A stretch of DNA of 36,376 nucleotides, from contig NZ_UNRA01000012.1 of the NCBI RefSeq assembly GCF_900537075.1, positions 1 through 36,376 of the forward strand. Reading direction: 5' to 3'. The stretch comes from Tropicibacter sp. Alg240-R139 (GTDB lineage: Bacteria; Pseudomonadota; Alphaproteobacteria; Rhodobacterales; Rhodobacteraceae). Position numbers and translations under genes: made by a program. Positions within the stretch are counted from its first letter, which is position 1. Each line of letters opens with the position of its first letter. Of this stretch, positions 2,319 to 36,292 are shown one piece after another. The notes beneath the pieces are model-generated. The model did not search any database and had not been told where the DNA came from. It worked only from the letters and a program-made list of their open reading frames with translations.

Positions 2319-5300
2319 TTGCAAATTCTCTCCTCAGTGCTGTTTTCGGTTGGCGCCATCCTCAGAGTTGCGCCGAAATTGGACAGATCACTTTCACAGT
2401 GGGTATCGACCGGAGGAGAATATTCAGCGGTCATCCGGACCAAAAGCGAAGGTATCGGCCGTACATTCTACGTGGCTAACGGCAAGATTCGCTCCAAGGC
2501 TGGTATCGACCCAAAAGCAGACATCGACCTTGCATTCTTGACCGTGAAAGATGCTCTTTCATCAATTCTACCTCCTGTTGATTGGCTCGAACGGCTTCAC
2601 GCCGGAAAGAACTTTAAGTTTGTGGCATCAGGAGAAGACGAGAAAATATATCACTTCATGCAAATTCTGGCCGGTCTCAATCGCATAGGTTGGAAATTTG
2701 GTATGAAGCAACCAGATGGAACGCAGAGATACACCACGATGACGAACGGCGGCCCGTTGTTTGTCTTTGCCAAAGACGGCAAAATTGTCCGTACTACACC
2801 CATCAGCCTTACCGAAAAAGACCCCAAATCTTGGTCAATTAACGCGCGCGGAAAGGTCTTTACGCCGCCGCGCAAGGCGACCGTATCTCCGCATGCCCTG
2901 CAATGGCGTTCAATCGTTTATTCGAAGGATCGCAACCTGTATCCAATGAAGCGCAAAGACTTCGATCCTAACGGAGAACGCAATCCGCAGAACCGTGGGA
3001 TCTCAGGATATGAACGGATCTCGTGGGACGAAGCCGAAACTATTGTTGCTAACGAAATTGAGCGGGTTAAGCGCGAGCACGGTGCCAGCGCCATTACATT
3101 CAATCACCCGTCACATCACACATGGGGAAACTTGGGCTATTGGATCAGTAGCCTAAATCGCTTTGCAAACGCCATCGGTCACACAAAAGTCAGCCACAAC
3201 CCTGACAGTTGGGAGGGCTGGTACTGGGGAGCGATGCATCACTGGGGTAACTCGCTGCGCCTTGGGGTTGGGGAACCCTACGGAACCGTCGAGGATCTGC
3301 TTCAGGAAGCGGAAATGCTTGTTCTCTGGTCCAGTGACCCCGAAGCAACCTCGGGGTTATACGGCGGGTCGGAAGGAACAATCCGGCGCATGTGGCTGAA
3401 GGAACTAGGTATTCCGATTGTGCACATCGACCCATATTTCAATCATACTGCAGCTTTCATGGGTGGAACGTGGATAGCGCCCAAGCCAGGGACGGACACG
3501 GCTCTGGCGCTTGCAATCGCCTATGTGTGGCTACAAGAAGGGCTTTATGACAAATCCTTTGTAACCAAACGCACCCATGGCTTTGAAGCTTGGAGCAAGT
3601 ATATCTTGGGTGACGAAGATGGCGTCAAGAAGACCCCGGAATGGCAAGAAGAAATTACTGGCGTCTCCGCCGCAGAAGTTCGTACTTTGGCCCGGCTTTG
3701 GGGCAAACGAAAAACGTATCTGGGAGCTGGTGGTAGCGGCAACGCATTTGGTGGGGCATGCCGAGGTCCGACCGGGCACAGTTGGGCCAGATCAATGGTT
3801 TGCCTGATGGCCATGCAGGGCATCGGTCGACCGGGTGTGAACTTCGGGAACCTTCAGTGGAGCACGCCTGTCGACCACCATTTTTGGTTTCCAGGCTATG
3901 CCGAGGGCGGAATATCGGGAGATTTGGCCAACACAGGCTCTCCCGTGAACGTCTATCAAAGGATGCCCCATCTTCTTTCGATGAACTCGGTCGCGGCACC
4001 GCCGATCCCCCGCCTGAGATTGCCGGAAGCGATCCAGGGTGAACCAGTTTCGGGCCAAACGCGCGATCCACGTTCAATCGAGGCGCAATTCAATGCGCCG
4101 CGCTATCCAGGGAAAGGTCATTCGCCAGTCCGCATGATGTATAAGTACGGAAGTAGCAACTTCAGCACGATGCCACAAAGTAATCGCTACGCCGATATGT
4201 ACCGTTCGGAGAATCTAGAATTTGTCGTTAACCAGAGCATCTGGAACGAACAGGATTGTCATTTCGCAGATGTGATCCTGCCAGCCTGCACAAGCATGGA
4301 GCGGTGGGATATTGGAGAATGGGCAAATGCGAACGGCTTCATTCCGCACAACCACACGCAGGTAAACCATAGGGTGATTGCAGTGCAGCACAAATGCATC
4401 GAGCCTTTGGGTGAAAGCCGGTCTGACTACAACATCTTTCTGTCTATTGCGAAACGCCTGGGCCTTGGAATGTATTTTTCCGAAGGCATGAGCGAATTGG
4501 ACTGGGTGCAGCGCATTTTCGAGTCGTCTGACCTTGCAAAAGAAATTTCCTTCAAGAAGTTGCTCAAACAAGGTTATTACGTTGTCCCGAACCCCCCAGA
4601 ATCTGAACGCACGACAGTGGCCAATCGCTGGTACTACGAAGGGCGGGAAAAGGATGTCCCAGAAACAATGCCCCTGCCTTCAGAGTACCGGGGCAAGTAT
4701 CTGAAAGGCTTGCAAACCCCGAGTGGCCTTTTCGAATTCGAAGCGCAGACGCTAAAGCGGTATGACAAGGACGACCCAGAGCGCCCTCCAATCGTAAAAT
4801 ATGTAGAATCTCCTGAATCGACAAATACCGAACGCGCGGAGTCCTTCCCGCTTCAACTTTTGACGCCTCACCCCCGCTTCAGCTTCCACACACAAGGGGA
4901 TGGTAAGGACGGGTTCTTGAACGATCTGGAAGACCACAGAGTCTGTGTGGATGGTCGTTTCTATCTGATTTTGCGTATGAATGCACAGGATGCATCGGCG
5001 CGCGGCATTCGCAAGGACGACTTGGTGAGAATCCACAACGATCGTGGCGCCGTTATCTGTGCTGCCCAGCCGACCGGGCGTTTGCGCCCAGGCATAGTAC
5101 ACGGCTATGAATCATCGGCCCGCTATGAGCCGACAGGGGAACCAGGGAAAAGCGACGATATCGGCGGCTCTCTGAATACGCTGACATCTGGAAAATCGCA
5201 GATCAAGCAGGGTCATTCTATGGGTTCCAGCAACAGCCTTGTGCAAGTGGAACTGCTCAGCGCCGAGGAATACAAGGCGCTGTTTTCTGACAGATCCGCC

Positions 5301-5327
5301 GCGAAGGAGTTCAATAAGAATGTCTGA
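2319..5327 (+). CDS. Transhydroxylase/resorcinol hydroxylase-type molybdopterin large subunit with SCP2-like N-terminus
   Basis: This 1002-residue DMSO-reductase-family subunit matches the pyrogallol-phloroglucinol transhydroxylase large chain of Pelobacter (about 875 residues) along residues 141-1000, for example INARGKVFTPPRK, NRGISGYERISWDEA, NPDSWEGW, FPGYAEGGISGD and LLTPHPRFSFHTQGDGK. Resorcinol hydroxylase of Azoarcus is the other characterised relative. By position, H266, Y274, D296, S297 (Mo ligand), W298 and Y527 correspond to Pelobacter H144, Y152, D174, S175, W176 and Y404. Two pocket residues differ: R153 is W275 and W354 is F477. Numbering is from memory of the Pelobacter protein. 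There is no Tat signal and no cysteine motif for an N-terminal Fe-S cluster, so it should be cytoplasmic, as in Pelobacter. Residues 30-125 form an extra domain resembling SCP2 (sterol-carrier-like). The start is TTG with GGAG seven bases upstream. It overlaps the small-subunit gene by eight bases. The exact substrate is unknown. Confidence 0.88.
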   Translation: MQILSSVLFSVGAILRVAPKLDRSLSQWVSTGGEYSAVIRTKSEGIGRTFYVANGKIRSKAGIDPKADIDLAFLTVKDALSSILPPVDWLERLHAGKNFKFVASGEDEKIYHFMQILAGLNRIGWKFGMKQPDGTQRYTTMTNGGPLFVFAKDGKIVRTTPISLTEKDPKSWSINARGKVFTPPRKATVSPHALQWRSIVYSKDRNLYPMKRKDFDPNGERNPQNRGISGYERISWDEAETIVANEIERVKREHGASAITFNHPSHHTWGNLGYWISSLNRFANAIGHTKVSHNPDSWEGWYWGAMHHWGNSLRLGVGEPYGTVEDLLQEAEMLVLWSSDPEATSGLYGGSEGTIRRMWLKELGIPIVHIDPYFNHTAAFMGGTWIAPKPGTDTALALAIAYVWLQEGLYDKSFVTKRTHGFEAWSKYILGDEDGVKKTPEWQEEITGVSAAEVRTLARLWGKRKTYLGAGGSGNAFGGACRGPTGHSWARSMVCLMAMQGIGRPGVNFGNLQWSTPVDHHFWFPGYAEGGISGDLANTGSPVNVYQRMPHLLSMNSVAAPPIPRLRLPEAIQGEPVSGQTRDPRSIEAQFNAPRYPGKGHSPVRMMYKYGSSNFSTMPQSNRYADMYRSENLEFVVNQSIWNEQDCHFADVILPACTSMERWDIGEWANANGFIPHNHTQVNHRVIAVQHKCIEPLGESRSDYNIFLSIAKRLGLGMYFSEGMSELDWVQRIFESSDLAKEISFKKLLKQGYYVVPNPPESERTTVANRWYYEGREKDVPETMPLPSEYRGKYLKGLQTPSGLFEFEAQTLKRYDKDDPERPPIVKYVESPESTNTERAESFPLQLLTPHPRFSFHTQGDGKDGFLNDLEDHRVCVDGRFYLILRMNAQDASARGIRKDDLVRIHNDRGAVICAAQPTGRLRPGIVHGYESSARYEPTGEPGKSDDIGGSLNTLTSGKSQIKQGHSMGSSNSLVQVELLSAEEYKALFSDRSAAKEFNKNV

Positions 5328-6168
5328 TAAGTGGGTTACGATTTTCGATATCGATAAATGCACGGGCTGCTGCAATTGTGTGCTAGCGACGATGGATGAG
5401 CACGTCAACAATCCGCACGAAGGCTACAGTACCGGCATTGAGCTGCACGGCGAACAAATACTCGACATAACTTGTGTTGAACGCGGCTCCTATCCCGTGA
5501 TTGACGTGAACTACGTTCTGCGTACATGTCAGCACTGCGTCGATGCGCCCTGCGCGCAGAAAGCGCCAGATGTCATTGAGGTGCGGTCGGACGGGATCGT
5601 ACGCATACGGCCAGAAAAGGCCAAGGGCCGGCGAGATGTTGTCGAGGCTTGTCCGTTTGGCGCCGTCGCTTGGAACAGCGAACTGGACATGCCGCAGATA
5701 TGGACGATGGACGTGCATCTTCTGGAACAGGGTTGGACCGAAAGCCGGGCCAGTCAGGCTTGCCCCACCGGGGCGCTTCAGACACGAAGGGTGGATGTTG
5801 CGGAACTGGAAGATATGAGAAGATCCGGTGACTATCGGTCAATTGATTCAGATATCTCAATCAACACCAATGTTCTCTACCGAAACTCTCATTCTCTTGA
5901 ACCACTGTGCTTAAGCGGGCGCGTCGTTCATACGGTAAACGCCGAGCAGGAGTGTCTTGCTGGCGTGTCTGTTTCGCTGGTATCCGGCTCTGACAATACC
6001 GTTCTTGACGTTGCTCGCACTGATGATTTCGGGATCTTCCGATTTGAAGGTCTGGTGGAGGCAGAAGGGTCAGCTAGGCTCGTTATAGAAGTGAGTGAAA
6101 AAAGACGCGTAGAGTTTGAAACATCAATCGGCCCAAACAAGTTCGTCGGGGTCATATCCGCGGACTGA
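5320..6168 (+). CDS. Transhydroxylase-type iron-sulfur small subunit, one cluster lost
   Basis: This 282-residue electron-transfer partner of the preceding subunit resembles the Pelobacter transhydroxylase small chain (about 275 residues). An N-terminal ferredoxin-like part (1-155) is followed by a beta-rich transthyretin/carboxypeptidase-regulatory-like domain (about 200-282). Cysteines C14, C17, C20 plus C148 can bind one [4Fe-4S] cluster, and C70, C73, C78 plus C111 a second. The four positions expected for the third cluster (fourth Cys of motif I and the first three of motif IV) are T24, W128, D131 and A144. ATG 5320 is chosen because AAGGAG lies about 11 bases upstream and the ferredoxin domain starts there. 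The longer frame from 5239 would extend into the large subunit. The 8-base overlap implies translational coupling. Confidence 0.88.
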   Translation: MSDKWVTIFDIDKCTGCCNCVLATMDEHVNNPHEGYSTGIELHGEQILDITCVERGSYPVIDVNYVLRTCQHCVDAPCAQKAPDVIEVRSDGIVRIRPEKAKGRRDVVEACPFGAVAWNSELDMPQIWTMDVHLLEQGWTESRASQACPTGALQTRRVDVAELEDMRRSGDYRSIDSDISINTNVLYRNSHSLEPLCLSGRVVHTVNAEQECLAGVSVSLVSGSDNTVLDVARTDDFGIFRFEGLVEAEGSARLVIEVSEKRRVEFETSIGPNKFVGVISAD

Positions 6169-6270: not shown

Positions 6271-6795
6271 TTGTTCACGCTAGCTAAAATTTCGCGGTTG
6301 ACCGCACGAATTGTAGGCCTCTTAGGTGCGATCGTGATCGTCGCTATGATGCTTCACATCACCGCTGACGTCATTGCGCGGTACGCCTTAGGATCTCCGT
6401 TGTCCGGAACTCTCGAAATAGTATCGCGATACTACATGGTGGCGATCGCCTTTTTGCCGTTGGCCTGGGTCGAACACCGAAACCAAATGATAAGTGTCTC
6501 GGCATTTGACTCCCTTTTGTCTCGGCGCGTAGTCCAAATCCGAGACGTTGTCGTTGCATTGATTTCATTTGGAGCATTTGGCCTTTTGGCCTGGGCAACA
6601 TGGGGCAATGCGCGCGAGGCGATTGAGCGGAAAGCATTTGTTTTGGCGCTTGGCGAACGCATACCCGTCTGGCCGACCTATCTGCTGCTTCCAGTTGGAT
6701 TTGGTCTGGTCGCAATTATCGTACTGATCCGCGTTGTTTCTATCATTGGAACGGACAGTACTGCTGAAGAAATCGAGCTGGGAGTGGGAAAATAA
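6271..6795 (+). CDS. dctQ: TRAP transporter small membrane subunit (DctQ family)
   Basis: This 174-residue protein has four predicted membrane spans (about 15-37, 48-68, 90-112 and 132-155) and the DctQ-type arrangement RYALGSPLSGTLEIVSRYYM followed by a basic loop. DctQ partners the large DctM permease in sodium-driven uptake of organic acids bound by a periplasmic DctP protein. The start is TTG at 6271 with an excellent GGGAGGA site at 6260-6266. The stop codon shares one base with the dctM start (TAATG). No dctP gene is visible in the window. Its position directly behind the molybdenum enzyme suggests it imports that pathway's substrate. Confidence 0.88.
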   Translation: MFTLAKISRLTARIVGLLGAIVIVAMMLHITADVIARYALGSPLSGTLEIVSRYYMVAIAFLPLAWVEHRNQMISVSAFDSLLSRRVVQIRDVVVALISFGAFGLLAWATWGNAREAIERKAFVLALGERIPVWPTYLLLPVGFGLVAIIVLIRVVSIIGTDSTAEEIELGVGK

Positions 6796-8096
6796 TGTCA
6801 GTAGCAACCGGCTTTGTCGGCATTTTTGTTTTGTTGGGACTCTTGATAATACGTGTACCGATTGCGATCGCATTGATCCTCGTTGCATTTTTTGGTGTGA
6901 CTTCCATGATCGGCCCGGACGCCGCCGTGAGCTTGTTAGCCGCCGGACCATATGATTTTGCTGCCAGTTGGACTCTCAGCGCTGTTCCGATGTTCTTGTT
7001 GATGGGTTTCATCGCTTACCATTCTGGGATGACATCCGGATTGTTCACTGCGGCCAATGTCTTCCTGCGCCGAATCCCAGGGGGGCTTGCGCTGTCGTCA
7101 ATTCTTGCATGCTCAGGTTTCGCCTCGGTTTGCGGCTCTTCAGTCGCCTGTGCCGCCGCGATGGGGCGCATCGCTATCCCCGAGATGATAAAGGCCGGCT
7201 ATAGGCCGGGGTTCGCATGCGGCACCGTCGCTGCTGGTGGCACAATTGGCGCACTCATTCCTCCTTCCATTCTTATGATTGTTTACGGGGTCTTCGCGCA
7301 AGCATCCGTCACAAAGATTTTTCTTGGCGGTGTGGTAGTTGGCGCTATGACTGCAATTAGTTACGCAATTGTAGTTTTCTTGGTTGCAGCGTTCTCGCCA
7401 GCGACCATCCCTCGTCAATCACAACAGGTCGCTTACTCGGCCGACGAATATGCAGATGCGATTCGCGCGGTTTGGCCTGTTTTCGTTCTGGTGATTGTGA
7501 CGTTTGGCGGCCTGTTTCTTGGCATCTTCACCGCAACCGAAGCCGGTGCGGTGGGTGCCACCACTGCCACCCTTCTCGCCCTAATCACTGGTAAACTAAC
7601 ACGGAATGCGGTGAATTCCGCGCTTGTCGAAACAATGAGCACGACGGCAAGTCTTTTCGTTATCGCCATCGGGGCTTCATTGTTCACGCGCTTCTTGGGG
7701 CTCAGCGGCTTCTCGAGCTATTTGACGTCATTTGTGACTGGGCAAGATCTTTCAATTGCGGTTGTATTGCTTGCTATCATTCTGATCTATCTAGCCTTGG
7801 GTATGTTCATGGAGCCGTTTGGTGCAATGCTGGTAACCCTCCCGGTGTTCCTCCCTGTGATCGAGTCCCACGGCGTATCCTTGATCTGGTTCGGCGTTCT
7901 GGTTGTAAAGCTTCTCGAAATCGGAATGATAACGCCACCAATGGGCATGAACATCTTTGTGATCAAAGCTATCTCCTCCAGAGATATTTCCCTCGGTCGG
8001 ATTTTTAAGGGTGCGGGTTTCTATTTGCTGGCAGATATAGCTCTCATTGCCATTATTTGTGCATTTCCCTCCGTAGTGCTCATTCTAACAAATTGA
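6795..8096 (+). CDS. dctM: TRAP transporter large permease subunit (DctM family)
   Basis: This 433-residue, strongly hydrophobic protein has about 12 membrane segments and typical DctM motifs: AVPMFLLMGFIAYHSGMT near the N-terminus, GTIGALIPPSILMIVYG in the middle, ATEAGAVGA, and EIGMITPPMGMNIFVIK near the C-terminus. It forms the transport channel of a TRAP system. Length and motif order are normal, and no frameshift is seen. It is cotranscribed with dctQ. Downstream lies a hairpin and then a decayed insertion sequence, so a binding-protein gene may have been lost or may lie elsewhere. Confidence 0.93.
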   Translation: MSVATGFVGIFVLLGLLIIRVPIAIALILVAFFGVTSMIGPDAAVSLLAAGPYDFAASWTLSAVPMFLLMGFIAYHSGMTSGLFTAANVFLRRIPGGLALSSILACSGFASVCGSSVACAAAMGRIAIPEMIKAGYRPGFACGTVAAGGTIGALIPPSILMIVYGVFAQASVTKIFLGGVVVGAMTAISYAIVVFLVAAFSPATIPRQSQQVAYSADEYADAIRAVWPVFVLVIVTFGGLFLGIFTATEAGAVGATTATLLALITGKLTRNAVNSALVETMSTTASLFVIAIGASLFTRFLGLSGFSSYLTSFVTGQDLSIAVVLLAIILIYLALGMFMEPFGAMLVTLPVFLPVIESHGVSLIWFGVLVVKLLEIGMITPPMGMNIFVIKAISSRDISLGRIFKGAGFYLLADIALIAIICAFPSVVLILTN

Positions 8097-8158: not shown

Positions 8159-8240
8159 AAAGGCGGCTGTCTGGGCGGCTAGGACACCTCAAACTCCGTT
8201 GAATAGGGATGCGATTGCCAAGCGATCTTCTTGTTGCATG

Positions 8241-9025
8241 CTAGGCTCAGGACTCATAACCAATAGATGACGGTTGCAGCGAGTGCGAAGAGGAGAACTG
8301 TGGACACCTGACGTATCGGGTTGCGACGCGCCGCCAGTCTTTCAGTCTGCCGAATACGATCTCGATGCGGCTTCGCCCCCTCTATCTACGTTTGTCGTAC
8401 TTCACCGGATTCTTGCGCTGTTTTCGACCCGGGATGCAGGGACGTATTCCTTTGTCTTTCAACGCTTCTCTGAACCAGTCAGCATTGTAACCTCGATCCC
8501 CGAGCAGCCAAACGACATCCGCTAGCCTGCTCAGTTAGGCCCGTGCGCCGACGTAGTCGCTGACCTGTCCGGCGGTGACGAATAGGTTCAGCGGACTACC
8601 TTGGCTGTCGCAGATTTCATGCAGCTTCGTGTTCATCCCACCCTTGGTGCGTCCGATCAGACGATCACGCTCCCTTTTTTTGCGATCATGACAGTCTTCT
8701 CTTCGCCGTGATCTGCCGCCAGCCCGACCATCATCTGCGCGAAGATACCCTTTTCACTCCAGCGCTTCCAAGGGTTGTACAACGTCTGGTGTCGGCCGTA
8801 CTCCTTGGGAGCATCACGTCAGCTTAAGCCATTGCGATTGTTAAAAATAATCCCGCTCATGACTCGTCGATCTTCAACGCGAGGCTTGCCGTGGGACTTC
8901 GGGAATTAGGACTCAAGACGCGCCATTTGCGCGTCCGTTAGCCGGAAAAGATCAGACATGTTCACCGATCGCTTTTCGAACCGTGAATCACGCCAATCAA
9001 CAAAAATCAATGGGTCCTGACCCTA
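8241..9025 (-). mobile_element. Decayed IS5-family (IS427-like) insertion sequence
   Basis: The element is bounded by CTAGGCTCAGGACTCA (8241-8256) and TGGGTCCTGACCCTAG (9010-9025), which match as inverted ends at 14 of 16 positions. Both ends carry CTAG, compatible with insertion at a short TA/CTAG target. The length of about 785 bases is near normal for the group. It carries the same transposase family as bases 2-235 but in opposite orientation, so the two copies have their right ends facing the transhydroxylase-TRAP block. Confidence 0.8.
8254..8959 (-). pseudogene. IS5-family transposase, multiply disrupted
   Basis: Translation from ATG 8959 gives MSDLFRLTDAQMARLES, a stop, then FPKSHGKPRVEDRRVMSG, NNRNGLS, a stop, and YGRHQTLYNPWKRWSEKG. 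It continues in other frames with TKGGMNTKLHEICD, DVVWLLGDRGYNADWFREAL and RSRIEIVFGRLKDWRRVATRY, and ends ALAATVIYWL. At least three internal stops and one or more frameshifts are present, so it is dead. The better preserved fragment at 2-235 shares the DWFREALKDKGIR and GRKQRK segments. Confidence 0.82.
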
Positions 9026-9151
9026 GCGCCATTACATTAGGTGAGAAGGTAGCCCATCAGCACGTGTCTGAAACAAAGATTCTGTGGCGTTACCGAGATG
9101 CATTATGGAGTGCGATGACGCTCCGCCGTACCCCGGATATGTTGCAAAATG

Positions 9152-9970
9152 CTAAGCTTCAAACATGCGGAGGGACTGTTCTGATATCGCAGAAGCTGTT
9201 TCAAACGCTAGCTCAATTTCACGCACAGCTTTTTGCAGAGGTTCAAAGAATTTTTCTTCAGCCTTCGCCGGATTGAACGCTGCGCGGAACACCACCACGT
9301 TCACTGCACCTGCTACTTTTTGACCCCGATAGACTGGAAGCGCTATAGCGCAGATCCGAGGCGTTGCCTCTTCAATCGAAAGCGCATATCCACGTTTCTC
9401 GAAATCGTTCACAATATGATTGAGTAGACCGGGTTGGTTAGCGTCGCTCCAGTTTTGGCCGCCATATTCTTCAACCTCAGCCAACAATCGACCGCGCTCA
9501 TCCTCGTTCATACCAGCGAAAATGGCTTTCCCGAGCGCCGTGCGAAAAATCGGTCTGGTTTCGCCAACAACATTCCGAAAGAAAGTCATTGTTGTATGGT
9601 GGTGACTTGAATCCACGATCGTGAGTTGCCCGCCGGATACCGTACCGTAATCGCTAGGCCAGTAGATATGCTTGGTCAATCTTGCGAGCGCTGGCGACAC
9701 GAGTAGAGACTCGTCGTCTTCGACTAAGATGCTTCTGCTGATGTAGCGAATCTTCTTAGACAAGAAAAAACGCCCGTCTTGCTCGCGTCGAACTACGTAG
9801 CCGCAATTTACAAGCGAAACGAGCAGCCGATAGATAGTGCTTCTGTCAATGCTGGTTGCATTTGCCATATCTGTAGGCGTCATCCATCCGGATTCGCCCA
9901 TGGCATCCAACAGGGCCAGAGCCCGATTAACCGCCCTGACTTCTTTCACCGGTTGAAATTTTTTTGTCAT
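9152..9970 (-). CDS. IclR-family transcriptional regulator
   Basis: This 272-residue regulator has an N-terminal winged helix (about 10-75; TPTDMANATSIDRSTIYRLLVSLV is the HTH) and a C-terminal IclR effector domain (about 85-260), with the family segments FRTALGKAIFAGM and RGYALSIEEATPRICAIALPV. IclR proteins commonly control aromatic-acid and alicyclic-acid catabolism, often from a divergent promoter. It is transcribed away from the ThDP-enzyme operon across a 149-base gap containing inverted repeats, so it probably regulates that operon and itself. The effector cannot be read from the sequence. A decayed IS ends about 125 bases beyond its stop. Confidence 0.92.
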   Translation of the reverse strand: MTKKFQPVKEVRAVNRALALLDAMGESGWMTPTDMANATSIDRSTIYRLLVSLVNCGYVVRREQDGRFFLSKKIRYISRSILVEDDESLLVSPALARLTKHIYWPSDYGTVSGGQLTIVDSSHHHTTMTFFRNVVGETRPIFRTALGKAIFAGMNEDERGRLLAEVEEYGGQNWSDANQPGLLNHIVNDFEKRGYALSIEEATPRICAIALPVYRGQKVAGAVNVVVFRAAFNPAKAEEKFFEPLQKAVREIELAFETASAISEQSLRMFEA

Positions 9971-9973
9971 ACT

Positions 9974-10003
9974 TTGTGATCCGGAAAAGTGGCTTTTTCA
10001 CAA
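9974..10003. promoter_or_regulatory. Candidate operator between the IclR gene and the ThDP operon
   Basis: TTGTGA (9974-9979) and TCACAA (9998-10003) form outer arms around GAAAAG (9984-9989) and CTTTTTC, an imperfect palindrome just upstream of the regulator start. Position and symmetry suit autoregulation and divergent control. The 13-base core GGAAAAGTGGCTT (9983-9995) recurs at 12948-12960, upstream of the CoA ligase operon. Confidence 0.35.
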
Positions 10004-10119
10004 TACCTCGTTCACCTAGCAAACGCAAGAAGCTCAACTGTTGGAAGCCCTTAGCCCGATTGTTACCAATGAGCTGAACTAACTCCGTCATGCGTTGAAA
10101 AAGCTAGGTATTTGTCGAA

Positions 10120-11835
10120 ATGAAGAAAACCACAGTAGCAGACACTCTAGCTGCGGCAATGAAGCGCCATGGCGTCGAAGTTGTTTTTGGCCAAAGCATT
10201 CCATCTGCCTTCGTGTTAGCGTTGCCACAATTTGGCATCCAACAGATCGGTTATCGCACCGAAAACGCTGGAGGCGTGATGGCCGATGGCTATGCACGAA
10301 CCTCAGGCAAGGTCGGCGTTGTTTGCGCCCAGAACGGGCCTGCGGCGACGTTACTTGTCGCGCCAATGGCCGAAGCACTTAAGGCTTCAGTGCCTATGGT
10401 AGCGATTGTTCAGGACGTGCCTGACAACATGGTCGATAAGAACTCCTTTCAGGAATTTGACCATCTAGCACTTTTCCACGGTTGCACAAAATGGGCGCGG
10501 CGCGTGGACCGGGCTGACCGGTTGGACGATTATGTCGATATGGCGTTCACGGCGGCCACCAGTGGGCGCCCAGGCCCTGTAGCTCTGATCGTGCCAATGG
10601 ATGTTCTTCGCCAAGAAGGTGTTCCTAACTCGAGTAGAAAAGCCAATCTGGGGTCGTTTCCACTGGACAGGATGGTCGCCGACCCTACGCGTGTAAGTGA
10701 GGCTGCCAATCTGCTCTCGGATGCGCATAGACCAATCATTATCGCAGGCGGCGGCGTTCATCTGTCAGGGGCGCACAATGAGCTTCTGGATTTCGCCGAA
10801 AAGGCATGCATACCGGTTGCGTCAACGAATATGGGTAAAGGCGCAATTGCTGAAAATCATCCGCTGGCGCTTGGCGTATTCACCAGCAATCTTCAGTCAG
10901 GCAATCGCGCTGGCGAGCTCAAGGATTACCTGACCGACGCCGATGTCGTATTGTTAATCGGAACACGGACGAACCAGAACGGCACCGACAGCTGGAAAAC
11001 CTATCCAACTGGCGCAAAGTTCATTCACATAGATATTGATCCGCAGGAAATCGGTCGCAATTACGAAGCCCTTCGCCTCGTAGGAGATGCCAAAACCACG
11101 CTGTCAGCTCTGACGGAAGCATATACATTCGCGCCAAAGTCGGACCTCAAAATCATCGGCGAACGCACCAAGGGTGCTGCTGAGAAGGTTGCGCGATACG
11201 TCAAAGAGGTTGGTGCAGGATCGAACGGACGATTGCGTCCAGAATTCGTGATGGATCAACTCGCCACGCTGATCGGTCCGCAGGACATAGTTGCAGCGGA
11301 TGCGAGCTACTCATCTAACTGGATCACCACCTATCTAGACGCGCAGCGTGGTGGACAACGCTTTCTTGTCCCACGCGGACTTGCTGGGCTTGGTTGGGGT
11401 ATGCCTATGGCGATGGGGGCAAAAATTGCTCACCCGGATGCCCGCGTGGTTGCTCTGGTAGGTGACGGCGGCTTTGGGCATTGCTGGCAAGAGCTTGAAA
11501 CTGCGCGCCGCATTGGATTGCCGCTGACGGTTATCGTTTTGAACAATAGTATCCTCGGGTTTCAATATCATGCCGAGAACATTCACTATGGTTTCCATAG
11601 CAACTCGGTTGACTTTGCCGAAGTTGATCACGCAGCCATAGCCCGAGCCTGCGGTTGCAGGGGGGTGCGCGTTTCCGAAGCGAAAGAGGTATTGTCGGCT
11701 CTTACCGATGCGTTTGCTTCTGACACGGCTACTTTGATCGAAGTCATGACTGATCCGGATGCATTTCCTCCGATTAGCCTGTTTGATGGCCCAAGCAAGG
11801 AACGCATCACTAATCTACAGACGGTGACAACATGA
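10120..11835 (+). CDS. ThDP-dependent enzyme of the acetolactate synthase family
   Basis: This 571-residue protein has the three-domain layout of ThDP enzymes such as acetolactate synthase: an N-terminal PYR domain (1-170) with catalytic E48 in RTENAGGVMADGYA, a central domain (about 190-330; IIIAGGGVHLSG), and a C-terminal PP domain with the cofactor motif GDG at 448-450 and NN at 475-476. The family includes decarboxylases, carboligases and ring-opening hydrolases (IolD, cyclohexane-1,2-dione hydrolase). It is not a typical IlvB: there is no IlvH partner and the neighbours are catabolic. I infer a catabolic C-C bond cleavage or carboligation role. It overlaps the SDR gene by four bases (ATGA), so the two are translationally coupled. 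The start ATG has only a weak AGG upstream. Confidence 0.85.
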   Translation: MKKTTVADTLAAAMKRHGVEVVFGQSIPSAFVLALPQFGIQQIGYRTENAGGVMADGYARTSGKVGVVCAQNGPAATLLVAPMAEALKASVPMVAIVQDVPDNMVDKNSFQEFDHLALFHGCTKWARRVDRADRLDDYVDMAFTAATSGRPGPVALIVPMDVLRQEGVPNSSRKANLGSFPLDRMVADPTRVSEAANLLSDAHRPIIIAGGGVHLSGAHNELLDFAEKACIPVASTNMGKGAIAENHPLALGVFTSNLQSGNRAGELKDYLTDADVVLLIGTRTNQNGTDSWKTYPTGAKFIHIDIDPQEIGRNYEALRLVGDAKTTLSALTEAYTFAPKSDLKIIGERTKGAAEKVARYVKEVGAGSNGRLRPEFVMDQLATLIGPQDIVAADASYSSNWITTYLDAQRGGQRFLVPRGLAGLGWGMPMAMGAKIAHPDARVVALVGDGGFGHCWQELETARRIGLPLTVIVLNNSILGFQYHAENIHYGFHSNSVDFAEVDHAAIARACGCRGVRVSEAKEVLSALTDAFASDTATLIEVMTDPDAFPPISLFDGPSKERITNLQTVTT

Positions 11836-12578
11836 GCAAGCTTGCGTGGGTGACAGGAGGATCAAGCGGGATCGGTTTCGCGATCGCGGAACGTTTGATG
11901 CGTGACGATTGGAAAGTAGCAATCAGCGGGCGCGATCGAGTACGGTTGGACGCCGCTGTGGAGAAACTGGGCGACAACGCGATCCCTCTGCAGCTTGACG
12001 TTACCGACGCAAAGGCGATGAAGTATGCGGTCGAAAGGCTGACTTCAGAGCATGGCACCGTAAACACGCTGGTGGCTAACGCGGGTATGAACGTCGGAAA
12101 ACGTGCATGGGGCGAAGTTTCAAACACTGATTTCGAAGGAATCGTATCGGCAAACCTTGTTGGTGTTTTTTCTTCCATCGATGCCGTTCTTGACGGGATG
12201 CGAGCAAAGAAAAATGGGCGGATAGTTGTCTTGTCATCCTTCGCTGGATGGCACATTACGCCACAGCCTGGGCCCGCATATTCAAGCTCAAAAATGGCGG
12301 TACGTGGTCTTGTCGACAGCCTGAATATGTCCGAATTACGTAACGGAATCGTGGCAACGTCACTATGCCCTGGCGAAGTCGCAACGCCGGCCATGGAGCG
12401 GCGCGTGCCACCACCGTCGCCTGAAACCTTAGCGCGAATGTTGCAGCCCGAAGATATTGCTTCTGCGGTTCACTATATTTTGAGTCAACCCGAGCGGGTG
12501 GCGATTAATGAGATGGTTATCTCACCTTCATGGAACAACGCCTACAATCGTGTCCCTGGGCCAAGCCCAGACAGCTAA
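11832..12578 (+). CDS. Short-chain dehydrogenase/reductase
   Basis: This 248-residue classical SDR has the cofactor motif TGGSSGIG at the N-terminus, NAG near residue 84, and the catalytic tyrosine and lysine Y150 and K154 (YSSSK) preceded by the SSF serine. The family oxidises hydroxyl groups or reduces ketones with NAD(P). The ATGA overlap with the ThDP enzyme indicates a shared step, for instance oxidation of the acyloin or aldehyde product. The substrate is not evident. The protein extends past the usual end with a proline-rich tail (NRVPGPSPDS). Confidence 0.9.
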   Translation: MSKLAWVTGGSSGIGFAIAERLMRDDWKVAISGRDRVRLDAAVEKLGDNAIPLQLDVTDAKAMKYAVERLTSEHGTVNTLVANAGMNVGKRAWGEVSNTDFEGIVSANLVGVFSSIDAVLDGMRAKKNGRIVVLSSFAGWHITPQPGPAYSSSKMAVRGLVDSLNMSELRNGIVATSLCPGEVATPAMERRVPPPSPETLARMLQPEDIASAVHYILSQPERVAINEMVISPSWNNAYNRVPGPSPDS

Positions 12579-12596
12579 TAGCAAAGAAAAATCGCA

Positions 12597-12911
12597 ATGA
12601 TATATGAAATGCGCACCTACACAGCCAAACCCGGCGCTTTGCGGTCCTGGCTCAGTGTTTATGAAGAAACAAGATTGCCTATCTTGAAACAGCATCTGGG
12701 ACGTCTCGTGGCCGCGTTTATCCCGGACACAGGCAATATCAATCAGCTCGTTCAGATTTGGGAGTACGAAAATGCAGAGGATCGAGAGCAGCGTCGTGCG
12801 GCACTTTGGGCTGATCCTGCGTGGACTGATCCAAAAAGCAACACTGCGGAAGCATTGGTTCATCAAGAAAGCGTCCTGCTAAAACCAACAAGCTTTTCGC
12901 CGCTGAAATAG
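12597..12911 (+). CDS. NIPSNAP-family protein
   Basis: This 104-residue protein begins MIYEMRTYTAKPGALRSW and contains the NIPSNAP ferredoxin-like fold features: IYEMRTY strand, LVQIWEYENAEDREQRRAALWADPAW helix, and a C-terminal LKPTSFSP strand. Such proteins are small dimeric alpha/beta-barrel-like units often found in catabolic operons with unknown biochemical roles. It starts 18 bases after the SDR stop with no strong ribosome site, so it is probably read as the last gene of the ThDP-SDR operon. Length is normal for single-domain bacterial members. Confidence 0.82.
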   Translation: MIYEMRTYTAKPGALRSWLSVYEETRLPILKQHLGRLVAAFIPDTGNINQLVQIWEYENAEDREQRRAALWADPAWTDPKSNTAEALVHQESVLLKPTSFSPLK

Positions 12912-31360: not shown

Positions 31361-33034
31361 TTATGTCGAGTTTCCGGGTGTCGCAGAGCCCAAGGTACCC
31401 CCTTCGACGGCAAGGCGACTCAACAAGGCGGCCGGCGTGAACTCGTCACCGCAAGCGAGCTCCAATCTCGACAGTCTGGCGTGGATTTCAGACAGCCCGA
31501 ACCTATCAGCCCAATACACCGGGCCACCTTTCCAGTTCGGCCAGCCATAGCCGAATTGCCAAACCACATCGATATCACTTGGACGGACGACAATGCCCTC
31601 TTCGATCAGTTTTGCCGCTTCATTGACCATCAGCAAGATCAGGCGGTCCTGGATTTCCTGATCCGAAATCTCACGGCGCTGAATTCCGTAATGCGCTGAT
31701 GCTGCTTCAAAGACGCTAATGGCTTCGTTGTCCAAACGCGGTTTGCGGCTATTTGCTTCGTAGGAGTAGTAACCCTTTCCGGTCTTCTGACCGAGCCGCC
31801 CCTTTGCAAAAAGCTCATCGATTACAAAGTCTTTTTCTCCGGACTCTTGGCGTGACCGATAGTCAAGCTCGATACCGCCCGCCATGTCTTGGAGTTCGAA
31901 TGTCCCCATCGGAAGACCGAACTCCCTCAGTACCCGATCCACTTGATCGGGAAGCGCTCCTTCGAGCAACAGTTTCCCTGCCTGTTTTTCACGCGCAAGC
32001 AACAGTCGGTTGCCCACGAACCCGTAGCAAACTCCCACGAGAACGGGCACTTTCCGAATACGCGTTCCCAATTTCATGGCCCGCGCAATCGTCTCGCCTT
32101 TCGTTTCGCGACCACGCACAACTTCCAGAAGTTTCATGACATGTGCAGGACTGAAAAAGTGCAATCCGATAACTGAGCCGGGCCGATCTGTGACTGCTGC
32201 GATCTCGTCGATGTCGAGCGTTGACGTGTTGGTTGCCAGCGTCGCACCCTTAGGAGCAAATTTGTCCATTTCGGCGAAAATTGTTTTTTTCAACCCCATT
32301 TGCTCATAGACAGCCTCGATGACAAGGTCCGCCCCTGAAATCGCTTGCATCTGAGTATCAGTATTGAGGTTTGCAAGGCACTGCGAGGCTTGCTGTTCCG
32401 TGAGTTTGCCCTTTGAAACACTGACCTCAAGAAGAGAAATAATCCCCTCACGTGCGCCATTTAACGCGTCGGGATCCTGATCGATGAGGATTACTGGAAT
32501 ATCGGCGAGTAACAAGGCAGTTGAGATGCCTGCTCCCATACGACCGGCGCCTATCACAGCTGCCTGAGTGTAATCGGCGGTGTGATCGCCTGGCTCAATC
32601 CCTGGGATGCTCGTGGACGACGTCTGCGCAGTTTCAGAATAGGCGCGCGCCTCTTGCGCGGCGGTTGTTGTGAACGCCAGAGAAGGTAGCGCATCCTTCT
32701 TCTGCTGAAAGGAAACTTCGACGGTGTCGCCGATCTGGACCTGGTGCACGTCGCAATTGACCAACGCAGTTGGAATGCGAGGGCCTTCTTCCAATTCGAT
32801 GATTGCCGTGGCGGCAAGGCGTCTGGATCTCCTGACGATGGAATGCGCATAAACGCTTCCGCGGCCTGACGTGACCACCCATTGTGTCGATGCACTGCCG
32901 CACATCGGGCACAATTGCCGTGGGTAAAAATACAGTTTGTCACAGTCATCGCATTTGCGAAGCGTCAGCTTACCTTCGGTAGCGCCATCCCAGAATTGTT
33001 CTAACCCGTCCAAATGAGAAAAACTTGTTTCCAT
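31361..33034 (-). CDS. DUF35 OB-fold / 3-hydroxyacyl-CoA dehydrogenase fusion
   Basis: This 557-residue two-part protein has at residues 1-135 a DUF35 unit: helix FWDGATEGKLTLRKC, zinc ribbon C28, C31, C42, C45, then an OB-fold (GRGSVYAHSIVRR, IPTALVNCDV, GDTVEVSFQ). Residues from about 165 form a 3-hydroxyacyl-CoA dehydrogenase: AAVIGAGRMGAGISTALLLA, HFFSPAHVMKLLEVV with the catalytic histidine, and GKGYYSYEA. DUF35 proteins normally bind thiolase-like partners (for example Ltp2 aldolase, PhlC), and the next upstream gene encodes such a partner. The fusion would tether a dehydrogenase to that complex. ATG 33034 follows the thiolase-like stop by six bases; GTG 33037 is an alternative start. 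Confidence 0.9.
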   Translation of the reverse strand: METSFSHLDGLEQFWDGATEGKLTLRKCDDCDKLYFYPRQLCPMCGSASTQWVVTSGRGSVYAHSIVRRSRRLAATAIIELEEGPRIPTALVNCDVHQVQIGDTVEVSFQQKKDALPSLAFTTTAAQEARAYSETAQTSSTSIPGIEPGDHTADYTQAAVIGAGRMGAGISTALLLADIPVILIDQDPDALNGAREGIISLLEVSVSKGKLTEQQASQCLANLNTDTQMQAISGADLVIEAVYEQMGLKKTIFAEMDKFAPKGATLATNTSTLDIDEIAAVTDRPGSVIGLHFFSPAHVMKLLEVVRGRETKGETIARAMKLGTRIRKVPVLVGVCYGFVGNRLLLAREKQAGKLLLEGALPDQVDRVLREFGLPMGTFELQDMAGGIELDYRSRQESGEKDFVIDELFAKGRLGQKTGKGYYSYEANSRKPRLDNEAISVFEAASAHYGIQRREISDQEIQDRLILLMVNEAAKLIEEGIVVRPSDIDVVWQFGYGWPNWKGGPVYWADRFGLSEIHARLSRLELACGDEFTPAALLSRLAVEGGTLGSATPGNST

Positions 33035-33040
33035 CACATC

Positions 33041-35593: not shown

Positions 35594-35958
35594 ATGAACA
35601 TGTCAACGATTATGCCGCGCCTGAAGGGTTTTCGCTTTCCTCGTGAGATCATCGCCTACGCGGTTTGGGCTTACCACCGCTTTGCGTTGAGCACAGCTGA
35701 CGTCGAGGATCTGTTGGCTGCGAGGGGTGTTATGGTCAGCCGGGAAGCGGTTCGGCAGTGGGTCAATCGCTTTGGGCGACACTTTGCAGATTGCATCAGG
35801 CGGGAACGTCGACGGCCGAATGACAAGTGGCACATGGACGAAGTCGTGATCATGATCCGTGGCAAGAAGCACTGGTTGTGGCGCGCGATCACCGCAAATG
35901 GCGACGTGCTCGACATTCTCGTGCAAACTCGCCGAAACGCCAAAGCTGCAAAGCAGCT
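35594..35958 (+). pseudogene. IS6-family transposase, N-terminal part
   Basis: The frame from ATG 35594 reads an IS6 (IS26-like) transposase: FPREIIAYAVWAYHRFALST, VMVSREAVRQWVNRFG, WHMDEVVIMIRGKKHWLWRA with the first catalytic aspartate, and VLDILVQTRRNAKAAK with the second. It breaks off at about residue 122, where an IS3-family element has inserted, so the catalytic glutamate region is missing. The frame continues by chance into the IS3 OrfA. Confidence 0.85.
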
Positions 35959-35989
35959 TGAGCCTCCCCACCTGAACTGGTCCACCGTT

Positions 35990-36292
35990 ATGTTTAGGAA
36001 ATGGAGGACCAAGAATGGCAAAAAGCGACCCAAGCCTGAAGAGAATGTCTCGAAGTTACGGCAGGTTGAAGTTCTGATGGGGCAAGGGATGTCCCGTCTT
36101 GATGCGATCAGACAGATCGGAGTTGTTGAGCAAACCTATTACCGCTGGCGGAAGAAGTATGGTGGAATGGGTGTTGATCAATTGAAAGAACTGAAACGGC
36201 TTCAGAAAGAGAACGAGCGGCTGAGACGCGCAGTTTCAGATCTGACGCTGGACAAACTGATCCTGACGGAAGCCACAAAGGGAAACTACTGA
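35990..36292 (+). CDS. IS3-family transposase OrfA (IS407-like group)
   Basis: This 100-residue OrfA has an N-terminal helix-turn-helix (VSKLRQVEVLMGQGMSRLDA, IRQIGVVEQTYYRWRKKYGG) and a leucine-zipper tail (LKRLQKENERLRRAVSDLTL) ending ILTEATKGNY, as in the IS407-like group of IS3. It binds the IS ends and joins OrfB by programmed frameshifting. ATG 35990 is the first in-frame start inside the element; the open frame upstream belongs to the IS6 transposase. Confidence 0.88.
   Translation: MFRKWRTKNGKKRPKPEENVSKLRQVEVLMGQGMSRLDAIRQIGVVEQTYYRWRKKYGGMGVDQLKELKRLQKENERLRRAVSDLTLDKLILTEATKGNY

Follow-up and report, generated by a model that had tools for sequence, protein, structure and literature searches.

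A transhydroxylase-type molybdoenzyme pair with an SCP2-fold domain and a lost [4Fe-4S] cluster in Tropicibacter sp. Alg240-R139

A 36,376-nucleotide contig of Tropicibacter sp. Alg240-R139 (NZ_UNRA01000012.1; here the window, which is the entire contig C12 of a 4.66 Mb host genome) encodes a two-gene molybdenum enzyme of the pyrogallol–phloroglucinol transhydroxylase type. It is composed of a large, molybdopterin subunit (LS, 1002 residues; 2319–5327, + strand) and a small, iron–sulfur subunit (SS, 282 residues; 5320–6168, + strand). At a probability of about 0.47, we read LS/SS as a molybdenum-dependent, O2-independent (trans)hydroxylase of phenols that belongs to a separate branch of the family and feeds extradiol ring cleavage; its probable task is to ready phenolic compounds for a ring opening that depends on oxygen. 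In the proposed scheme, the bis(molybdopterin guanine dinucleotide) enzyme would move or add a ring hydroxyl without O2, leaving two hydroxyls side by side on the ring; ring opening would then fall to a BphC-like extradiol dioxygenase, while a tripartite ATP-independent periplasmic (TRAP) transporter, whose parts surround LS/SS, probably imports the substrate. What was established by computation is the family, the place in the tree, the fold of the added domain, the loss of residues and cysteines, the neighbour genes and the structure of insertion sequences (IS). The sequence-only reading from which this work started had recognized the type of pair and two altered pocket residues; it missed the more informative departures, namely F674 in the pocket, an SCP2-fold domain and a lost iron–sulfur cluster.

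Family, tree and active site of the large subunit

Both subunits have the Pelobacter transhydroxylase (4v4c) as their closest solved relative, LS with 51% identity and SS at E 2.4e-37 over an alignment spanning most of the protein. LS also matches Pfam PF21423 ('Pyrogallol hydroxytransferase large subunit-like, domain 1') at 92.8 bits, well above the cut-off (27), and its AlphaFold model (mean predicted local distance difference test, pLDDT, 75.5) finds 4v4c as best match (TM-score 0.89 on target). Catechol dehydroxylases are closer to acetylene hydratase than to the transhydroxylase, according to an excerpt of PMC7028382; membership of LS among them was considered and rejected, as LS matches acetylene hydratase at E 4.4e-9 versus E 7.1e-277 for the transhydroxylase.

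Relatives were collected by a scan of genome contigs, which confirmed at least 539 encoded copies, the best 80 of which were used; eight plasmid records encode further close relatives (52–56% identity). After addition of copies from the searched genomes and removal of duplicates, 103 LS sequences were aligned, and trees were built with FastTree and IQ-TREE and rooted on three distant sequences; loci L017, L053, L055 and L061, at which no LS frame was picked, stand outside them. The tree places LS within the transhydroxylase family and not within another molybdoenzyme family, which bears out the assignment first made from the letters. Seven rows lacking an N-terminal extension (six genes, L041b being a truncated copy of L106) group together with bootstrap 100, Pelobacter stands apart, and an extension-bearing branch of 92 is recovered, again with bootstrap 100. 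The extension reaches at least 100 residues in 91 of these 92 members, i.e., in 91 of the 103 LS sampled, a sample gathered with the window's own family as query. In the exception, L008, an insertion interrupts LS, whose upstream part is recovered by tblastn; at this locus (L008:12475–16469, Sinorhizobium terangae) the splitting frame is 30% identical to the IS110 protein of the window.

Within the extension-bearing branch, group B (61 members including the window) is monophyletic (FastTree 0.992, IQ-TREE bootstrap 99), and group A (30 members) together with L073 forms a grade, not a clade, in IQ-TREE. The window falls in a small clade with L013, L113, L014 and L015 (support 1.0 in FastTree, 100 in IQ-TREE). 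Group A, represented by L025, L033, L042 and the Moorella locus L026, has many members that come from anaerobic lineages and is 54–59% identical to the window. Carriers of group B are named as rhizobia, Burkholderiaceae, SAR116 and other proteobacteria, names that suggest an aerobic life; judging by them, the family is not confined to anaerobes. Among the matches listed in searches of open-licence literature, no description of an SCP2-fused molybdoenzyme, of the group B branch or of its cluster loss was seen; an excerpt of PMC4959651 mentions Dehalococcoidia genes annotated earlier as pyrogallol hydroxytransferases. The genomes of L014, L015 and L026 (G063, G064 and G066) hold five, three and four paralogues, respectively, some without the N-terminal extension.

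The alignment pairs Pelobacter H144, Y152, D174, S175, W176 and Y404 with H266, Y274, D296, S297 (the Mo ligand; codon 3207–3209), W298 and Y527 of the window, so that the six residues earlier thought to be kept are indeed kept; for the pocket roles of H144, Y152, D174, W176 and Y404 and of the serine ligand we rely on what we presume for the Pelobacter enzyme. The two substitutions also described then, W275 for R153 (3141–3143, + strand) and F477 for W354 (3747–3749, + strand), are reproduced, and neither R153 nor W354 is conserved. At position 153, the 102 readable sequences show arginine once, in Pelobacter, lysine in all six readable extension-free rows and an aromatic residue in 92 of 92 members of the extension-bearing branch (group A: W 25, Y 3, F 2; group B: Y 55, W 6; L073: F). 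At position 354, group A has F in 26 of its 30 sequences, and group B has H (31), F (20), L (5), Y (3) or W (2). Judged by this alignment, R153 is a poor mark of the family, being seen in Pelobacter only, and W275 and F477 follow the whole extension-bearing branch. They had been taken to signal a different substrate. That argument fails, because W153 (25 of 30) with F354 is the most frequent state in group A, where 13 of 28 loci carry phloroglucinol-type genes.

A third substitution behaves differently. F674 (4338–4340, + strand) replaces Pelobacter Y560, a tyrosine kept in 87 of the 92 extension-bearing sequences and in 29 of 30 group A members; phenylalanine is found in the window, L113, L014 and L015, that is, in four of five members of the window clade, and L054 has valine. 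F674 thus marks the window clade among the aligned sequences. Compared with AthLS of Pelobacter acidigallici, which transfers a hydroxyl between tetrahydroxybenzene and pyrogallol, the window enzyme shares the LS fold, the serine Mo ligand, the equivalents of H144, Y152, D174, W176 and Y404 and the LS–SS pairing; it differs in having an SCP2-fold N-terminal domain, W at 153, F at both 354 and 560, and an SS without one [4Fe-4S] cluster.

An SCP2-fold domain at the N-terminus

The N-terminal extension of LS amounts to 136 residues relative to Pelobacter AthL. An AlphaFold2 model of residues 1–147, computed with 50 homologues, reached a mean pLDDT of 87.7, and Foldseek comparison with the PDB gave the SCP2 domain of UbiJ as best match (E 2.1e-6); ranks 1–39 were all UbiJ, SCP2 proteins or alkylsulfatase-type proteins, the last of which we take to match through their SCP2-like part. 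The model therefore predicts an SCP2 fold for approximately residues 1–125 (2319–2693, + strand). At the sequence level, Pfam SCP2 matched weakly (best E 0.0022) in 12 of 51 members, the window not among them, and a sequence profile of the domain searched against the PDB found no SCP2 chain. Early candidates for the domain, DUF2711 (E 0.31) and two chance PDB matches, were replaced by the fold comparison.

The domain may bind or present the substrate. A parallel is offered by UbiJ and UbiT, SCP2 proteins that serve ring hydroxylation in ubiquinone synthesis, according to an excerpt of PMC6747719. Like the window domain, these are SCP2 proteins tied to ring hydroxylation, and UbiJ is the best structural match; unlike in the window, SCP2 there usually forms a protein of its own, and those hydroxylases have no relation to molybdoenzymes.

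Loss of one cluster from the small subunit

The Pelobacter SS has 12 cluster cysteines, which we take to bind three [4Fe-4S] clusters. The window SS keeps eight of them (C14, C17, C20 and C148, together with C70, C73, C78 and C111), and T24, W128, D131 and A144 replace all four ligands of one cluster; the assignment of C23, C126, C129 and C145 to a single cluster is our assumption, carried over from NarH and other ferredoxin-type subunits. The motif W128-x-x-D131 (5701–5712, + strand), in which two cluster cysteines are replaced, is common to group B: C126/C129 read W/D in 49 of 50 SS and Y/D in one, and all four ligands are gone in 17 of 50, window included, while the ligands of the other two clusters are kept in 50 and 48 of 50. 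Five further SS (L104, L105, L109, L113 and L114, the last two read by eye) agree, bringing the loss of C126/C129 to 55 of 55, the number of group B SS that these counts cover, six more having not been found. Within the window clade all four ligands are gone in five of five. Conversely, each of 28 group A SS has all 12 cysteines, as do L096 and L103 (30 read in total) and the extension-free genes L062b, L106, L107, L110 and L117. At loci outside the LS tree, the SS of L017, L055 and L061 lack C126/C129 and that of L053 keeps all 12. Because it is confined to the ligands of one cluster across a whole clade, the loss is not a chance pattern on the sequences compared.

A shortened cluster chain would favour redox-neutral hydroxyl transfer over an oxidation in which electrons leave along that chain. 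This bears directly on a reading that we consider unlikely, in which LS/SS acts like resorcinol hydroxylase, adding a water-derived hydroxyl to a meta-diol and sending electrons out via SS to an acceptor. An excerpt of PMC10100899 describes RhL as a Ser-ligated family member that converts resorcinol to hydroxyhydroquinone, and RhLS of Azoarcus anaerobius, compared here by description only, is Ser-ligated and phenol-acting like the window enzyme. Its product, hydroxyhydroquinone, has adjacent hydroxyls, and at L015, in the window clade, Amidohydro_2 and UbiD genes follow LS–SS directly. Loss of a whole cluster would nevertheless shorten any electron path that such a reaction requires. An RhL search among 150 genomes of one order returned three matches, the starting genome included, and none of the three could be recognized as RhL.

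Genes next to the relatives

Flanks available around the relatives differ in length, and the counts of phloroglucinol-type clusters are lower bounds. At group A loci that include L025, L033, L037, L042 and L044, genes for a cyclase, a short-chain dehydrogenase/reductase (SDR), a 3-hydroxyacyl-CoA dehydrogenase-type protein, a BKACE and, mostly, a cupin precede LS–SS. The SDR of L042 matches 5g4k (E 3e-72), presumably phloroglucinol reductase. Apart from the cupin, the same families make up the phloroglucinol pathway of Clostridium scatologenes, according to an excerpt of PMC10470551. Cyclase/cupin/BKACE clusters were found at 13 of 28 group A loci versus 0 of 56 group B loci, and at least three of the five phloroglucinol-type families at 7 of 28 versus 0 of 56. 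Conversely, clusters with FAH or VOC-dioxygenase genes were found at 14 of 56 group B loci and at no group A locus.

These contexts also bear on whether the window enzyme is a pyrogallol-to-phloroglucinol transhydroxylase feeding the reductive phloroglucinol pathway (genes for PGR, a cyclase-type DPGC, TfD and a BKACE-type TAL), a role that we regard as quite improbable. W153 and F354 are usual in group A, many of whose loci carry the pathway's gene families. The host, moreover, has a BKACE gene on contig C4 whose product scores 499 bits, above the cut-off of 430, on the NCBIfam model for 3,5-dioxohexanoate:acetyl-CoA acetone transferase, a point against the preferred function; three group A BKACEs score 388–416 on that model, below the host protein, and an SDR and a 3-hydroxyacyl-CoA dehydrogenase-type gene follow the host BKACE gene. 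On the other side stand the lack of any cyclase/cupin/BKACE cluster near the 56 group B loci and of cyclase or cupin matches in 20 kb around the host BKACE, no genome-wide cyclase search having been made. Searched at E 1e-45, the C4 SDR matches no solved structure, unlike that of L042; the C4 dehydrogenase scores best on carnitine dehydrogenase models without attaining their cut-offs; and genes for a choline-sulfatase and a GbcA-like oxygenase open the cluster. In this cluster (L128:6370–12473), genes for the GbcA-like oxygenase, choline-sulfatase, BKACE, SDR and carnitine-dehydrogenase-like protein lie in a row; a first interpretation as carnitine use became uncertain once the BKACE passed the 3,5-dioxohexanoate model, a result that moved a little weight from the preferred function to the phloroglucinol one.

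For the preferred function in ring cleavage, the substrate is hinted at from two sides. Organic-acid transporters recur in the window clade, with TRAP components in the window (Pfam) and at L014 and L119 (by eye) and tripartite tricarboxylate transporter components at L015 (by eye), which points to a small aromatic acid. A lipophilic compound would be expected from the SCP2 fold, and the two hints conflict.

Operon, insertion sequences and contig C10

The start codon of LS is the TTG at 2319, which a GGAG motif precedes by 7 nt; the ATG of SS at 5320 overlaps the end of LS, and both frames are intact. They are followed by genes for the TRAP components DctQ (6271–6795, + strand; PF04290, E 6.2e-25) and DctM (6795–8096, + strand; PF06808, E 1.4e-80). 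LS–SS–DctQ–DctM is flanked on the left by one end of an IS5-type element (1–257, + strand; 100% identical to C5:269828–270084) and an IS110-type remnant (317–1826, strand unassigned; best match 71% identical), and on the right by an IS5-type remnant (8239–9032, strand unassigned; inverted relative to the end at 1–257). The host, which also encodes MobA, is roseobacter-like from its 16S gene (best match in plasmid records Pseudosulfitobacter, 96.1%), and no LS homologue at E 1e-100 was found in 36 other genomes of the genus or family. Both the alphaproteobacterial host and the mobile setting suspected at the outset are thereby supported.

The third TRAP component, DctP, is missing from the window and lies on contig C10. 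C5 carries an intact IS5 whose two ends are matched at 100% by positions 1–370 of C10 and 1–257 of the window, and the orientations are those expected of the order C10 (reversed)–IS5–window; other long IS5 copies are at most 81% identical, and short pieces of 36–47 nt reach 97%. We infer that C10 adjoins the window through a split IS5 copy. Reading towards the window, the left end of C10 encodes a BphC-like extradiol dioxygenase (a VOC protein) and then DctP. The dioxygenase matches BphC at E 5.2e-59, keeps H, H and E at what we take to be the iron-ligand positions, and is 47% identical to a SAR116 dioxygenase encoded in a VOC–VOC–FAH–LS–SS run. The ancestral operon may thus have been dioxygenase–DctP–LS–SS–DctQ–DctM, later split by IS elements.

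Several observations weigh against this function. The C10–window joint rests on a repeat, with 263 bp of IS5 unseen, and IS elements today separate the parts of the proposed operon. The C10 dioxygenase scores below the curated BphC cut-off (264.8 versus 366.5 bits), so that its ring substrate need not be that of BphC. The FAH/VOC association covers a minority of group B loci, and 9 of the 14 come from two groups of close kin (four SAR116, five rhizobial or Burkholderiaceae). Pfam assignments of 111 group B neighbours include FAA_hydrolase 5 times and Glyoxalase 4 times in otherwise diverse contexts; these were 111 of 164 selected, large and likely antisense frames having been dropped by eye, and the selection passed over nine group B loci in addition to the window. 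Active-site segments of the LS model have pLDDT below 50, for which reason pocket modelling on the full subunit was dropped. F674 may weaken catalysis. No sigma-70-like site was found at 1750–2400.

The missing promoter-like site and F674 would also suit a decaying passenger, in which loss of a cluster and of a pocket tyrosine has left an IS-bounded gene pair without function, with IS remnants on either side and, as proposed above, between DctP and LS. We hold this to be very improbable: the LS and SS frames are full length, the Mo ligand is kept along with five further pocket residues named above, and other members of the window clade show the same losses (F674 in four of five, all four cluster ligands in five of five).

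A broader and more doubtful proposal is that group B forms a large undescribed class that adapts transhydroxylase chemistry to aerobes. Such enzymes might, by discarding the cluster, have become limited to redox-neutral hydroxyl transfer, deliver a hydrophobic or alkylated phenol by a built-in SCP2 carrier, and replace flavin monooxygenases ahead of extradiol cleavage in rhizobia, Burkholderiaceae, SAR116 and roseobacters. The solved transhydroxylase comes from a fermenting anaerobe and the group B branch has shed one cluster, which makes two questions testable: does hydroxyl transfer require the clusters of the small subunit, and do some aerobes hydroxylate phenols with molybdenum and water, not O2, before ring cleavage?

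Other genes in the window

Downstream of the right-hand IS5 remnant, an IclR regulator gene is divergent from genes for a thiamine pyrophosphate (TPP) enzyme, an SDR and a small NIPSNAP-like protein, the last recognized by eye (9152–12911). The TPP enzyme was considered as a cyclohexanedione hydrolase and rejected, its best solved matches being BbmA and acetolactate synthases. The region 13190–35209 encodes acyl-CoA ligases, tandem acyl-CoA dehydrogenases, a FadJ-like protein, thiolases and a sulfatase, resembling a side-chain degradation set; within it, a single 558-residue frame (31361–33037) combines ChsH2-type zinc ribbon/OB domains with a 3-hydroxyacyl-CoA dehydrogenase. A transposase-type frame (35594–36292) lies at the right end of the contig.

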